Source: Ignavibacteriota bacterium
Lineage (GTDB): Bacteria; Bacteroidota; Ignavibacteria; Tepidaquicellales; Tepidaquicellaceae
NCBI GenBank assembly: GCA_016218085.1
Contig: JACREY010000003.1
Location: 124,001 to 188,000, forward strand
Reading direction: 5' to 3'
DNA length: 64,000 nt
The notes under the pieces are model-generated. The model saw nothing but the letters and a program-made list of their open reading frames with translations. It ran no database searches and was not told where the DNA came from. The translations under genes were made by a program, and so were the position numbers. Every line of letters begins with the position of its first letter. The first letter of the stretch is position 1. Shown here one piece after another: positions 19,546 through 26,602 of the stretch.

Positions 19546-21126
19546 TTATATTATATTTTCCGGAAGCCCTGGTTTAACAAATAAAACTTTCTCTCTTTCC
19601 ATAATGACACTTCCTTCTTTAAAACCTTTTTTCTTTTTGACGTATTTCCGTTCGCAGTATGCGACCGGAACGCTCGACGCATTTCTGGCTTTGCTGTAAT
19701 ATGCAGCAATAGATGCTGCTGTTTCAATAATTTTTTTTTCGGGTGGATTTTTTTTGTCGGATATTTTCAATACGGTGTGCGAGCCGCTCGCACCGCGAAT
19801 GTGAAACCATAAATCATTCTGTGCGCTGTACCTTACCGTGAGCATATCATTGGATGCGCTGTCCTTACCAACCCATACTTCAAATTTATCGTTCAACCTG
19901 AACTTTCTGAAGCGGGAGGTTTCATCCTCTTTTGTAAGTTCCTTTTCTTTCATTTTATATACTTTTAAATCTTGATTGCTTTTTAATTCTTCTATTTCTT
20001 TCTTCAGCAATACAATTATGTTTTTCTGAACTTCGATTTTTTCTTTTAATAATTCAATAGAATTTTTCAGTCTTTTGTATTTTTCATAATACGAAGCTGC
20101 ATTTCCGGCAGGACTGAGTTCACGTTTTAATATAATAGCAATTTCATTTTCTGCGTCACCGTCGATTGTAATCTTATCATCCCCTTTTTTTGCAATATGC
20201 AGGTTCGATAGTATCAAATCTCCGTATGTCTTTAGCAGGTCTGCATTCCCGGCAGTTTCAAGCTGTTTGACGAGCGAATTATATTTTTTTTCGGCCGCTT
20301 TCAGTTGATTTTCTTTGCTGTTAATCACGCTCTTACGTAAATCTTCGCCCGAATGAATGCTGTAAAACATTTTCAAATATGCCTGTATCATATCGTTAAT
20401 GTTGTTATAAACTTTTGCTTCACAGTCACTCAGATGTTCGAATCTTGCAAGTGCAGTATAAAGATTTTTCCCGTCCGAATAGAGAATGTAATCCGGTTTC
20501 AAAAGTTTCTTTTCATATTCATTAATATATTTATCCAGGGATATTTTAATTTCACTGCTGCATTCCTCCGTACCTTTCAGATTTTTCAGGAAAAGAAATT
20601 CTTTCATTGGCAAGTCTCCGAAAGTTCTGCATTCCGAGCGAAAATATTCCTTAATATTCCCGTATTTTTTTCTTATATGTTCCTCTTTTCTTGCCACAAA
20701 TTCATTCAGAGTTCTTCCGATTAATTCTTTCTTATTCCGGAATGTATCAATTATTTTTCCGTCTGTTACAACCAGCAGATTGTTTTTCAGCCTGAAGAAG
20801 ACAAAGTATAAATCGATTCCGCCCGTAAGTGAAAATTGTACGATCCTGTCATTATTAAAAATATATATACCGGTAATTTTCAGCTCATACAATCCGGGCA
20901 TCAGGCTGAGTACATTACGTTTAGCTTTTTTGTAATCTTCTTTGAAAATTAAAAACGGTAGCTTATCTGAACAGGAAAATTCAAGAAATTTATCAGAAAA
21001 ATTATTTGAAAGATGAAAGACGAGTTTATCCTTTTCCTGCGTGAAGATATCTTTAATTAGATAACCGTTGATTTCCTTTTGAAGTAAAGATGAGACCTCT
21101 TTTAAAAGATAAAAATTGTCAAGCAA
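19546..21126 (-). CDS. rqcH: NFACT-family ribosome quality-control protein RqcH
   Basis: 526 residues. The N-terminal NFACT-N domain carries NNDRIVQF with D93-R94. These match the Asp-Arg pair (D97-R98) reported as needed for alanine tailing by Bacillus RqcH. A long coiled coil lies near residues 260-390, and a C-terminal NFACT-R domain reads DLWFHIRGASGSHTVLK, then ARNASSVPVAYCERKYVKK. RqcH binds stalled large ribosomal subunits and adds C-terminal Ala to the trapped chain; the older name is fibronectin-binding protein. The start is TTG, in an A/T hairpin (21113-21130) that could hinder initiation. It follows atpG by 8 nt, so it may share the ATP synthase transcript. Confidence 0.93.
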   Translation of the reverse strand: MLDNFYLLKEVSSLLQKEINGYLIKDIFTQEKDKLVFHLSNNFSDKFLEFSCSDKLPFLIFKEDYKKAKRNVLSLMPGLYELKITGIYIFNNDRIVQFSLTGGIDLYFVFFRLKNNLLVVTDGKIIDTFRNKKELIGRTLNEFVARKEEHIRKKYGNIKEYFRSECRTFGDLPMKEFLFLKNLKGTEECSSEIKISLDKYINEYEKKLLKPDYILYSDGKNLYTALARFEHLSDCEAKVYNNINDMIQAYLKMFYSIHSGEDLRKSVINSKENQLKAAEKKYNSLVKQLETAGNADLLKTYGDLILSNLHIAKKGDDKITIDGDAENEIAIILKRELSPAGNAASYYEKYKRLKNSIELLKEKIEVQKNIIVLLKKEIEELKSNQDLKVYKMKEKELTKEDETSRFRKFRLNDKFEVWVGKDSASNDMLTVRYSAQNDLWFHIRGASGSHTVLKISDKKNPPEKKIIETAASIAAYYSKARNASSVPVAYCERKYVKKKKGFKEGSVIMEREKVLFVKPGLPENII

Positions 21127-21134
21127 TTTTATTA

Positions 21135-21995
21135 TTATCCTTCTTTCAGCGCCTCTGCACCGCTGACGATTTCAAGAAGTTCTTTTGTTATTGATTCCTG
21201 ACGCGCCTTATTATAAAGCAGGTTCAGATATTTGATTAAGTCATCGGCATTCTTTGTCGCAAGCTCCATTGCCGTCATTCTGGCTCCAAGCTCTGCGGCA
21301 TTGGATTCAAGAAGAGTCTTCCAGAACTGCACACGAAGATGTTTCGGAACCAGCTCCCCGAGAATTTCCTCGGATGCAGGTTCGTAAATATAATCAGTCA
21401 GGTTTGCTCCGTTTAACTCTTCCGGTTTTGCAACGGGTAGAAACTGCTCCTTCCTTACTACCTGCTTTACAACTGATTTGAATTCATTATAAATGATTTC
21501 GACCAGGTCGAAATCCCCGTTCAGGTAACCCGTGACTATGTAATTTGCAATTTCATTCGAGATGCCGAGATTAAGATTGCTGAAAAGCTGTGTATAGCTT
21601 TTCACTACATTATATTTTCTTTTTGAGAAGAAATCGTTTCCTTTTTTTCCTACAGTAAGAATCGGAGTATCTTTCCCTGTTTCATCCAGGTAGTTCGAAG
21701 CATATTTAATGAGATTGGAGTTGAATGAACCGCACATTCCTCTGTCGCCGGATACAATTACAACAAGCCTTTTCTTTATTTCTCTTTCCTGCATCAAAGG
21801 ACTGGACAATTCTTCGGTTGCGGCAGTAAGATGGGAGAGAAGCTCTGCCATTTTGTATGCATACGGCCTTGTGGCAACGATCCTGTCCTGTGCTCTTTTC
21901 AGCTTTGTTGCAGAAATCATTTTCATAGCCTTTGTGATTTTCTGCGTGCTTTTAACTGCAGTTATCCTGTTCTTTATTTCTTTTAAAGTAGCCAA
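21135..21995 (-). CDS. atpG: ATP synthase F1 gamma subunit
   Basis: 286 residues, normal length. The N-terminus ATLKEIKNRITAVKSTQKITKAMKMISATKLKRAQ is the conserved first rotor helix. GDRGMCGSFNSN is the Rossmann-core signature, and the C-terminal helix ends ITKELLEIVSGAEAL. Gamma is the central rotor shaft. The start is TTG; the next Met lies well inside the conserved helix, so TTG must be used. It is the last F-type gene of the cluster; atpD and atpC do not follow. Confidence 0.97.
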   Translation of the reverse strand: MATLKEIKNRITAVKSTQKITKAMKMISATKLKRAQDRIVATRPYAYKMAELLSHLTAATEELSSPLMQEREIKKRLVVIVSGDRGMCGSFNSNLIKYASNYLDETGKDTPILTVGKKGNDFFSKRKYNVVKSYTQLFSNLNLGISNEIANYIVTGYLNGDFDLVEIIYNEFKSVVKQVVRKEQFLPVAKPEELNGANLTDYIYEPASEEILGELVPKHLRVQFWKTLLESNAAELGARMTAMELATKNADDLIKYLNLLYNKARQESITKELLEIVSGAEALKEG

Positions 21996-22020: not shown

Positions 22021-22290
22021 TTAAGTTAATCCTTTTTCTTCCAGTTTTTTAACAACGTGCTTTTCAAGCTCGGCATAGCTTAGCGTGGTAGAGCGCGGCT
22101 GTGCCTGTATAATAGCATTTAATACCGAATCAGTCTCGTTGTTCAGGTAAAGGTTTACACAAAAGCTGAGCCTATTTCTGTCGTTGGGAACGGTGATAAT
22201 TTCATCCAGCTCATTTATTGCACTATAAAGTTTCTTTATATCTGCATCAGCATCAAAAAGATTTACTTCCGCAGGAGGTTTAGTGGTCAT
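22021..22290 (-). CDS. Unknown 89-residue protein inside the ATP synthase operon
   Basis: 89 residues, ATG start 8 nt after the atpA stop, ending 25 nt before atpG. There is no signal peptide and no membrane helix. A first segment (about 10-35) is acidic, with DADADIKKLYSAINELDE; a middle part is hydrophobic and strand-like (RLSFCVNLYLNNE); the C-terminus is a charged helix (YAELEKHVVKKLEEKGLT). I recognise no family. Fitting tightly between atpA and atpG in the same direction argues that it is a real gene, possibly a lineage-specific factor of the enzyme. That is inference only. Confidence 0.7.
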   Translation of the reverse strand: MTTKPPAEVNLFDADADIKKLYSAINELDEIITVPNDRNRLSFCVNLYLNNETDSVLNAIIQAQPRSTTLSYAELEKHVVKKLEEKGLT

Positions 22291-22298
22291 TGTTAAAA

Positions 22299-23819
22299 TT
22301 ATTTAATTGTAGTTTTAAATCTTTCGGTGAATTCTGATATAACTTTATTTAATCTTGCCGTTATGTCTTCAGTCAGTTCCTTCTTTATTTTTAAATCATC
22401 GAGAATATCCTTGTGCATATTTTCCATTTCTGACAGAAATTCGGATTCATATTTTGCAAGATTAGGCACCGGAATTTCATCGAGGTATCCTTTTGTTGCC
22501 GTGTATACAATCACTACCTGCTTTTCTATATCCATCGGTACATATTGTTTCTGCTTGAGAATCTGAACAAGTCTTTCACCTCTTCTTAACTGCTGAAGAG
22601 TAGCTTTGTCAAGGTCAGAACCGAATTTTGCAAATGCTTCCAGCTCACGGTACTGTGCCAGTTCGATTCTAAGCGTACCTGCAATTTTTTTCATAGCTTT
22701 AATCTGAGCGTTTCCGCCTACACGCGAAACCGAGATACCTACGTTAATAGCCGGCCTTACACCTGCATTGAAAAGATTTGGTTCAAGGTAAATCTGGCCG
22801 TCCGTTATGGATATTACGTTTGTCGGAATGTAAGCCGATACGTCACCTGCCTTGGTTTCGATAACGGGAAGGGCAGTTAAACTTCCACCGCCTAAATCAT
22901 CTGAAAGCTTCGAGGCTCTCTCGAGAAGTCTTGAATGCAGATAAAATACATCGCCGGGATAAGCTTCACGTCCCGGAGGTCTCCTGAGAAGTAAGGATAC
23001 TTCTCTGTATGCAGCTGCGTGTTTTGTCAAATCGTCATATACTACGAGTGCGTGTTTTCCCCTGTCGCGGAAATATTCGCCGAGGGTTGCACCCGAATAT
23101 GGAGAAATATAAAGCAATGGAGCGGGGTCTGATGCCGATGCCGCAATGATGGTTGTGTATTCCATTGCCCCTGCATCGTATAAGTTTTTATAAACCTGTG
23201 CTATTGTAGAGCCTTTCTGTCCGATTGCTACATAGATACAAAATACATCTTTTCCCTTCTGATTGATGATAGCATCTATTGCGATTGCTGTTTTACCTGT
23301 TTGCCTGTCTCCGATGATAAGCTCTCTCTGTCCGCGTCCGATAGGAATCATGGCATCAACTGCTTTAAGTCCTGTCTGCAACGGCTCTTTAACAGGCTGT
23401 CTCTGGATTACGCCAAGAGCTTTTCTTTCCATAGGAAGAAATACATCTGTTTTTATATCACCTTTTCCGTCTATAGGAATTCCGAGAGGATTGATAACCC
23501 TGCCAAGCATGGCTTCACCCGCAGGCATAGATGCAATTCTGCCGGTTCTCTTCACCTGGTCGCCTTCTTCTACAAGATGCGATTCACCGAAAAGGATACA
23601 ACCTACATTATCCTCTTCGAGGTTTAATGCAACTCCAATAACACCGTGTGGAAACTCGAGAAGTTCCGTTGCCATACATTTAGATAATCCGAATACCCTT
23701 GCTACTCCGTCACCAACCGATAATACGGTTCCGACATCATATACATCAACATCCCTTTCAAATCCGGAAATCTGCTGTAAAAGCATTTTGGAAACTTCAC
23801 CTGATTTAACATCAAACAT
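22299..23819 (-). CDS. atpA: ATP synthase F1 alpha subunit
   Basis: 506 residues, normal length. Walker A is GDRQTGKT (170-177). Other family marks are [21 protein letters not shown], the [31 protein letters not shown] region and the [19 protein letters not shown] segment. Alpha forms the F1 hexamer with beta and binds non-catalytic nucleotide. It is followed by the unknown 89-residue gene rather than directly by atpG. Confidence 0.98.
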
Positions 23820-23865: not shown

Positions 23866-24411
23866 TTATTTTATGTTTATATCTTTAAACTTGTTTCTTA
23901 AATTTTCAAGCTGTCTTTTTATACTTGCATCTACTACAACATCCTTCACCTTAATAGTAAATCCCCCGACAAGGGATTTATCCACCGAAAATTCCGGAAT
24001 GCTCTTCTTACCGGTGAATGCATTTATAGACTCTGCTAATTTTTTCTTTGCCTTCTCGTCGAGTTCCACTGCAGTCTTAATATCAGTTCTTATCTTCCCT
24101 TCCGCATCATTTTTCAGGTCAATGTAACCGTTTAAAATTTCTGCCAGAAGGTTCTCTCTTTTATTCTGTATTAATAACTTGATGAAATCAAAACTTAACG
24201 GCGAAATTTTCTTTTTGAATAATGATTCTAATACCTGAATCTTTTTATCCGAGCGTATTACGGGACTTTGAAAAAACAATTTAAGGTCTCTGCTCGATTT
24301 CAGCAGTCCTATCAAATTTTTCGAATCATCCGCAACTGCATCGAGCTTTTTTGCCGAATTGGCTGCCTGATACAATGCTAAAGAATATCTGCGTATGGCT
24401 TTTGATAACAT
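23866..24411 (-). CDS. atpH: ATP synthase delta subunit (OSCP)
   Basis: 181 residues. The N-terminal helical domain starts IRRYSLALYQAA. Near the C-terminus, VDKSLVGGFTIKVKDVVVDASIKRQLENL is the conserved segment of the delta/OSCP family. Delta joins the peripheral stalk (subunit b) to the top of F1. It lies between atpF and atpA in the usual order. Confidence 0.95.
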   Translation of the reverse strand: MLSKAIRRYSLALYQAANSAKKLDAVADDSKNLIGLLKSSRDLKLFFQSPVIRSDKKIQVLESLFKKKISPLSFDFIKLLIQNKRENLLAEILNGYIDLKNDAEGKIRTDIKTAVELDEKAKKKLAESINAFTGKKSIPEFSVDKSLVGGFTIKVKDVVVDASIKRQLENLRNKFKDINIK

Positions 24412-24426
24412 TAAATTAATACCGTA

Positions 24427-24990
24427 TTAATTTTTTGGAATTCGGTTTATAAAATCTTCTACAATCTTTTTTTGTTTCTTTTCGTCAAGCGTTTCATTGA
24501 GAATCTTCTCTGCAGCCTTTATTGCAAGGTCGGATATTTCTTCCTTTATCTGCTGAAGAGCAGTAATTTTTTGCTGTTCGATTTCCTGTTTTGCCTGGTC
24601 AACAATCTTTCTTGATTCTTCGTTGGCTTTATTCACAATATCGTCACGAAGTTTTACAGCCATTTCCCTGCCTTCATTTATGACTTTCTGGGCTGCCATA
24701 TTGGCTTCCGAAAGCGCTTTTTTATTTTGCTCTAATAATTCCTGTGCATCTTTGTTCTGCTTTTCGGCATTTTCAATCGACGTTTTGATTGAGTCTTCTC
24801 TGCTGTGCAATGCTTTAATCAGCGGACCCCAGGCTATTTTCTTGAGAAGGATTAATAGAAGGACAAATATTATTATCGTCCATATTATCAATCCGGGATT
24901 TACCGCTAGCAAAGAAGGTTTTTCGTGTCCGTCTCCGCTTAGTAAAAGAATGCAAAAATTATTTAGAAGCAATGAAATATGATAAATCAT
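24427..24990 (-). CDS. atpF: ATP synthase F0 subunit b
   Basis: 187 residues. A membrane helix at about 32-52 ([20 protein letters not shown]) is followed by [20 protein letters not shown] and a long Lys/Glu/Ala coiled coil to the end, the peripheral stalk. The first 25 residues ([17 protein letters not shown]) are unlike most b subunits and could be an extra leader. The true start might instead be a TTG a few codons in; no clear ribosome-binding site decides. No second b gene is present. Confidence 0.94.
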
Positions 24991-25031: not shown

Positions 25032-25253
25032 TTAACTCTTGATTGCAAGAAGGATACAGATAACAAGTCCGAAAAGTGCAACACCTTCGATAAGAGCTGC
25101 TGCAATAATCATCGATGTTCTGATATCTCCGAGTGCAGTTGGGTTTCTTCCGCTTGCATCCATTGCCGCTGCGGCTATTTTACCGATACCAAAACCGGCT
25201 CCGATTACTACTAAGCCTGCTCCGATTCCTGCTGCTAAATAAGCTAAATCCAT
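25032..25253 (-). CDS. atpE: ATP synthase F0 subunit c
   Basis: 73 residues: two helices with the Gly-rich first helix (AAGIGAGLVVIGAGFGIG), the polar loop ASGRNP (33-38) and the ion-binding Glu at residue 56 in ALIEGVALFGLV. The Gln32/Glu65-Ser66-Thr-type ligands of sodium c rings are absent (EGVALF follows instead). This points to proton coupling. An AAGGAGAAA ribosome-binding site precedes the ATG. Confidence 0.97.
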   Translation of the reverse strand: MDLAYLAAGIGAGLVVIGAGFGIGKIAAAAMDASGRNPTALGDIRTSMIIAAALIEGVALFGLVICILLAIKS

Positions 25254-25303: not shown

Positions 25304-26206
25304 TTAATGCTCCTGATGCATTGCCATATTTATGAATATGGCTGATAGCATCGTGAATATATATGCCTGTAAAAGCGCTACGAAAATTTCAAGACAGTAT
25401 ATGAACAGCGCAAACGGAACTGCTATCACCGCTCCCGCCCATTTCATAATGAAAATCAAACCTATCAAAGATAATACTATTATCGAACCCGCAGTGATGT
25501 TTGCAAACAACCTCATCAATAGCGCAAACGGCTTCGTGAATAACCCGATAAACTCAACTATAATCATAATCGGCAGTACAAATGCCGGAACACCGTGCGG
25601 CACCAGTCCTTTAAAATATCCGAATATTCCGTTCTTCTTCATACCCATTATCTGTGTCGTGAAGAATGTAATTAATGCAAGCCCTGTAGTTACATTTATA
25701 TTTTTTGTCGGCTGTGCCATAAATGGTACCAGCCCTATGAAATTCGCAAATAAAATGAAAAAGAATACCGTCAGGAAAAACGGCAGTAGTTTAAGCCCTT
25801 CCTTTCCCATATTTGGAAGTACTATCTCATCTCGAATAAATACGACAATAACTTCAATAAAATTACCTACACTCTTCGGCACCCTGTTCTTCGTGTTAAT
25901 CGATACCGCCCTTAGAAGTACAAATATCAGTATCACTGAAGATACTACCATCATGAATAAACTCTTTGTAATGGAAAAATCTATTGTCATTCCTCCGATA
26001 TGTACGGGAGGAAACTTCGGCAGGGGCAGCTTTCCAAGAAAATAAAAATCTACGTAGTCGTGGTCAACTACCTTTTCGATAATATCAAAATTCTCTTTAC
26101 CTTCGCCATGCTCGCCTTCTTTCTTCGGCTCTTCTGCAAATGTGATTTTAGCCGTGAAAAGGAAAACCAGCAGTAATAAGTAAAGTATTTTCTTAATGTT
26201 CAACAA
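25304..26206 (-). CDS. atpB: ATP synthase F0 subunit a
   Basis: 300 residues, longer than the ~270 of E. coli because of a cleavable-looking signal peptide (1-24, ending ITFA) and an acidic, His-containing periplasmic segment. The functional Arg lies in LLMRLFANITAG (R232). NFIGLVPF and the last AYIFTMLSAIFI helix complete the family pattern. Subunit a forms the proton half-channels. The start is TTG, directly after the stop of the preceding gene with no gap. Confidence 0.96.
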   Translation of the reverse strand: MLNIKKILYLLLLVFLFTAKITFAEEPKKEGEHGEGKENFDIIEKVVDHDYVDFYFLGKLPLPKFPPVHIGGMTIDFSITKSLFMMVVSSVILIFVLLRAVSINTKNRVPKSVGNFIEVIVVFIRDEIVLPNMGKEGLKLLPFFLTVFFFILFANFIGLVPFMAQPTKNINVTTGLALITFFTTQIMGMKKNGIFGYFKGLVPHGVPAFVLPIMIIVEFIGLFTKPFALLMRLFANITAGSIIVLSLIGLIFIMKWAGAVIAVPFALFIYCLEIFVALLQAYIFTMLSAIFINMAMHQEH

Positions 26207-26602
26207 TTATCCTTTATTTTTATCTAAAACTTTATTCAATAAATATATTTCAAAACTGAGATATGCGAAATAAAACCCCAAAAGGGATAATATAAAATAA
26301 TTTTTTTGAAACTTAAAGACCGCAATTAGTACCAAAACAAGAATTATTATAACAAAAAGCCGTATTCCGATGCTTCCAAGCGAAAAAATTAAAAAAACTT
26401 TATTCGTCTTATCGAGTGAGAATACAAATATAAAACTCCCGATTGCGAAGTTAATAACACATATTAAAAATGATGAAAATATTTCAGGAAGTGGTACATT
26501 TAATCCTGATATCTTTACAAATCCATAAAAAATAATCCATAGTAAACTACTGATTATCAATATATTCCTAACAAATACCCGGCTAAATAAATTCCGCATC
26601 AA
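26207..26602 (-). CDS. Small four-helix membrane protein, AtpI-like
   Basis: 131 residues with four predicted helices and almost no other features (NILIISSLLWIIFYGFV, SFLICVINFAIGSFIFVF, GSIGIRLFVIIILVLVLI, YFILSLLGFYFAYLSFEIYLL). Size, topology and place directly before atpB match AtpI (ATP synthase protein I), which helps assemble the c ring in some bacteria. Sequence similarity is weak, so the name rests mainly on context. The start may be TTG at 26602 or the following ATG at 26599. Confidence 0.7.
   Translation of the reverse strand: MMRNLFSRVFVRNILIISSLLWIIFYGFVKISGLNVPLPEIFSSFLICVINFAIGSFIFVFSLDKTNKVFLIFSLGSIGIRLFVIIILVLVLIAVFKFQKNYFILSLLGFYFAYLSFEIYLLNKVLDKNKG

Follow-up and report, generated by a model that had tools for sequence, protein, structure and literature searches.

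A class-wide orphan gene captured between atpA and atpG in one clade of Ignavibacteria

Few bacterial gene clusters are as well conserved as the atp operon, and to our knowledge insertions between its F1 genes have rarely been described. Small non-core genes do belong to it, such as those of the ATPase gene 1/AtpI-AtpZ kind, which lead atp operons and encode membrane proteins. Zeta (DUF1476, PF07345) is a known F1 inhibitor. According to PMC9317440, zeta is restricted to a single class, the alphaproteobacteria, its gene usually lies outside the atp operon, its conserved part is the disordered N-terminal inhibitory side, and the epsilon subunit of alphaproteobacteria is described as non-inhibitory.

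The locus considered here lies in a window of 64,000 nucleotides, by which we mean the whole stretch analysed, on contig JACREY010000003.1 of an Ignavibacteriota bacterium. On its minus strand, which carries all the genes of the window named in this paragraph, an 89-codon open reading frame with an ATG start (ORF89, 22021..22290) is placed between atpA for the F1 alpha subunit directly upstream (22299..23819; TIGR00962, E 5.8e-245) and atpG for the gamma subunit directly downstream (21135..21995; TIGR01146, E 3e-97). The spacers of 8 nt from atpA and 25 nt to atpG are those that an earlier note on this DNA had read. Further upstream, the same operon contains the frames of atpH (delta, 23866..24411), atpF (b, 24427..24990), atpE (c, 25032..25253) and atpB (a, 25304..26206), named by sequence recognition, and starts with ATPase gene 1 (PF09527, 26706..26978; 59.6 bits against a Pfam cut-off of 26.6). 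The order had been called standard, which holds for B-E-F-H-A-G but not for atpD and atpC: these form a separate pair on another contig of the genome (G000:C4, locus L235), and the operon in the window therefore ends at atpG. As the spacing is tight and the atpA-atpG gap has no terminator-like site on the strand of ORF89, co-expression with F1 is likely, in agreement with what had been proposed from the letters of this one genome, and the product is probably now made together with ATP synthase.

Two other genes of this region were observed in passing, both on the minus strand. Between ATPase gene 1 and atpB lies a 131-aa open reading frame (26207-26602) without a Pfam match at E 0.001, which we guess from its place and hydrophobic look to be an AtpI-like accessory. 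An NFACT-family (RqcH-like) gene (19546-21126) follows 8 nt downstream of atpG; a match to it adjoins atpG in nine of the 12 loci that carry ORF89, the remaining ones being short or without a match.

ORF89 is not one of the familiar components of the operon. It matched none of the F1 core-subunit profiles, and there is no missing core gene for it to fill, with beta and epsilon encoded on the other contig and delta at 23866-24411. Like ATPase gene 1/AtpI-AtpZ it is a small non-core gene inside an atp operon, but it sits between the alpha and gamma genes and does not match PF09527. It does behave as a gene. A tblastn search matched it in 18 of 59 relatives, and Nei-Gojobori estimates of dN/dS lie at 0.057-0.162 for the five pairs, out of eight, that escaped saturation, next to 0.046-0.075 for atpG, computable in three of eight pairs; with dS at about 1 or more throughout, these values are rough. 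Purifying selection on ORF89 is clear all the same, at about 0.06-0.16 where dN/dS was measurable, as befits the real gene that had been postulated.

How the gene came to its place can be read from the relatives. A profile search detected ORF89 in 12 of the 29 genomes of the window's family, distributed over seven genera, and in every one of the 12 it is found between atpA and atpG, with 2-26 nt before it and 3-40 nt after it. In the order as a whole, atpG was located in 42 of 44 genomes. Fifteen family members without ORF89 have an empty atpA-atpG gap of 16-157 nt, too short to hold it, as are the gaps of 3-86 nt in the sister family, read in three of its 15 genomes. Two family genomes were left out of this count: G016, whose atpG is fragmentary and lies at the end of a contig, and G028, where no atpG was found. 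The shared position that the earlier note had anticipated in related genomes is thus seen in every readable member of the clade, but the gene is absent from the site in half of the family. A tree built on AtpA and AtpG of 30 genomes unites all 12 carriers in a single clade (support 99/99), with one change accounting for the presence of ORF89. No further copy was found in the order at E 0.001 with a profile of 137 sequences, where weak matches start at E 0.06. Synteny, empty sites and trees together demonstrate a single insertion into the atp operon, in the common ancestor of the clade to which the window belongs, followed by retention with no loss seen since.

The gene itself is much older than this insertion. 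In the class Ignavibacteria, 233 of 391 genomes are positive with the family profile and the other 158 negative; outside the window's family, 221 of 362 class genomes carry a homologue, and two matches in one genome occur in just two cases across the class. When the phylum was sampled, 57 of 395 genomes matched, every one of them within Ignavibacteria. ORF89 therefore belongs to an old, class-wide and mostly single-copy family, so far found in Ignavibacteria only, which overturns the earlier impression of a gene peculiar to its lineage; operon capture of a class-wide orphan describes it better. The protein tree, with 137 rows, gathers the window's clade in a single group (100/91), and one change suffices for ten of 15 families; the tree rests on 91 columns, has long branches flagged and omits the carrier row L004, a near copy of another row. 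The single group and the ten families argue for mainly vertical descent with losses and against repeated transfer. The atp-linked gene is best seen as the moved orthologue, a regained copy being less likely, although direct relocation and loss followed by re-acquisition would leave the same picture.

Away from the window's family the gene keeps different company. We inspected 126 loci, chosen from the 221 positive genomes for their spread over families rather than at random and read to about 5 kb per side where the contig permitted. The homologue is present at all of them, and at none does a neighbour resemble AtpA, B, E, F, G or H (blastp, E 1e-4). In 54 loci (for example L143, L115 and L157) a heptosyltransferase gene and then a Kdo-transferase gene lie upstream on the opposite strand, back to back with the homologue, and in 41 a fructose-bisphosphatase gene converges from downstream, often in this same setting. 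In another 18 loci a MarC gene comes after the homologue on the same strand. The conserved heptosyltransferase and Kdo-transferase setting raises a possible link to the outer envelope. Both flanking genes of at least 100 aa are on the opposite strand in 58 loci; together with the variety of neighbours this suggests that the unlinked homologues are mostly transcribed from their own promoter and have no constant partner. The cultured Melioribacter roseus provides an example, with its homologue at 1.81 Mb (G175:C1:1810532-1810783, locus L157); its atpA is MROS_0272, as given in PMC5492636. Such unlinked homologues correspond to ORF89 over the full length, with the same size and the same motif, but they lie away from atp genes and differ from it at residues 18 and 46. 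Separately, two related genomes (loci L013/L019 and L016/L022) have a PspA-like coding region, named from its sequence, upstream of the homologue at a distance of about 1 kb. Gene fusions were considered as a clue to function and discarded: long frames at some matches were read as upstream read-through, and in all nine loci trimmed among the first 66 an ordinary start lies inside the long frame.

At the level of the protein the family is compact and well defined. AlphaFold2 predicts four short helices for ORF89 (residues 12-30, 35-49, 56-63 and 72-86; mean pLDDT 81.5, pTM 0.63) and nearly the same four for L143, a distant member of the class (mean pLDDT 76.4, pTM 0.56); the last predicted helix agrees with the charged C-terminal helix noted before. 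Y22 and R40 are invariant in all 137 rows, and N36 (128/137), D37 (129/137) and L41 (134/137) nearly so, and conservation peaks over residues 36-43, where helix 2 begins. We refer to these helical proteins of about 88 aa as the Ignavibacteria NDR-x-RL small-protein family, defined by a full-length profile match, Y22 and R40, the pattern N36-D37-x-x-R40-L41 and a length of 82-96 aa, a definition drawn from the same 137 rows. ORF89, with N36-D37-R38-N39-R40-L41, belongs to it. Its pI is 4.86 and the median of the 126 others 6.8; without marked basicity, the proteins are unlikely to be general nucleic-acid binders.

Comparison with described families and folds yielded no relative. The absence of a recognised domain in ORF89, claimed before from inspection, was borne out at the cut-offs of Pfam (best COG5_N, 18.9 bits against 31.2) and NCBIfam (best 12.9 bits against 257), and among 78 members searched against both collections no family was matched in more than five (best E 0.0016). 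PDB sequences, searched both with ORF89 alone and with three alignments, gave no solved-structure match; a poxvirus A46 chain (E 0.04 over 39 residues) was dismissed as chance. Phages and plasmids gave no match. In fold searches with the two models, Foldseek had no match at E 0.001 or better, and a HAD phosphatase region (best Z 6.6, rmsd 6.6) was dropped as under the chance level for helical models. The modelled fold has no confident structural relative. A literature search found no publication on the gene in the texts it covered.

On balance, we consider it most likely that an independent small protein with an older role unconnected to F1 was captured by the operon. The genes of this family normally stand away from ATP-synthase genes; at the root of the window's clade the gene came to be placed between atpA and atpG, and it was kept there. 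Transcribed on the atp message, as spacers of 2-40 nt suggest, its dose would now track F1, with the protein retaining its older job, for which F1 is not required. ORF89 might be a dispensable four-helix adaptor or regulator that binds a partner through the face formed by Y22, N36-D37 and R40-L41; the adaptor role is our guess from size, modelled fold and conservation. ORF89 may act directly on F1, but the data can be explained without it.

Retention in all 12 clade members, set against absence from 158 class genomes, could nevertheless mean that a use together with F1 has been gained. If so, this clade alone would have recruited ORF89 after its insertion, as an assembly factor, stabiliser or inhibitor of F1, by way of matched expression. 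Strict retention with tight spacing in all 12 carriers and the site between the alpha and gamma genes speak for such a recruitment, as do changes at two residues. Of the 126 unlinked homologues, 123 have E at position 18 and 113 an aromatic residue at position 46; none of the 12 atp-linked proteins has E at 18, and all 12 have N or S at 46. If helices 1 and 2 pack antiparallel, the two residues would sit level with each other on them. Their change could mark a new partner. The search for group-specific positions was exploratory, and the count in the atp-linked clade is no excess, other groups tested showing 0-3. Recruitment has also to contend with older homologues unlinked to atp genes and with the 15 family relatives in which atpA and atpG do without ORF89, and position alone may persist because excision would harm atpG expression.

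A need for an additional inhibitor is hard to discern as well. The epsilon subunit of the window's genome, 135 aa long and encoded beside atpD, matches both PF02823 and PF00401, which leaves no visible regulatory gap and led us to reject, for this genome, the idea that ORF89 stands in as inhibitor for an epsilon domain that was lost. In the other carriers the open frame of epsilon measures 131-156 aa, except in G001, where a 90-aa fragment matches in part. Taken together, the two-domain epsilon, the 15 gaps lacking ORF89 and the count of zero atp-linked loci among the 126 outside the family weaken the earlier proposal of an assembly factor or inhibitor, and we regard recruitment as an F1 accessory as unlikely. 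A more specific form of it, in which a captured class-specific orphan became, in this one clade, a supernumerary subunit of F1 or a regulator of it, with residues 18 and 46 recording the change of partner, appears to us improbable to a similar degree.

Zeta opens a different path. By analogy with this class-specific regulator encoded outside the operon, a role on F1 may be entertained even for the unlinked proteins: ORF89 would then act on F1 throughout the class and be encoded in trans in most families, and its arrival in an atp operon would be understandable. The NDR-x-RL proteins resemble zeta, as portrayed in PMC9317440, in being short, at least partly helical, confined to one bacterial class and usually encoded outside atp operons. 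There are differences as well. Zeta is conserved at its disordered N-terminal side and the NDR-x-RL family at residues 36-43, and whereas the alphaproteobacterial epsilon is described as non-inhibitory, that of the window's genome has both Pfam domains. Eighteen members, scanned at E up to 1, matched 16 families, and PF07345 was not one of them; nor was it among the matches listed (25 of 26 families) when 78 members were scanned with the limit at 0.1. A search of the window's genome for PF07345 found none, while the positive control matched in Caulobacter. Fold searches had no zeta chain among the matches listed, and their best Z of 6.6 is a score that small helical models without kinship also reach, which speaks neither for nor against a fold shared with the solved zeta structures. 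A partner of F1 across the class would, moreover, have to be missing from 158 of 391 genomes and, at 126 loci without atp linkage, to accompany heptosyltransferase, Kdo-transferase, fructose-bisphosphatase and MarC genes instead, and we hold this explanation to be quite improbable. That ORF89 is a chance or decaying frame and no gene at all is refuted for practical purposes by open homologues of full length, present in 12 genomes of the family and at 126 loci beyond it, and by dN/dS well below 1, with nothing found in its favour.

The date, site and single origin of the insertion can thus be read from living relatives, and the class-wide orphan family, for which no curated family model matched, merits a name. 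If ORF89 binds F1, the clade and its relatives with empty sites would show the birth of a new ATP-synthase subunit; should the captured-subunit reading be true, they would amount to a natural before-and-after experiment, with relatives keeping the ancestral unlinked form. If it does not bind F1, the locus would offer a clean case of operon membership without proof of shared function.
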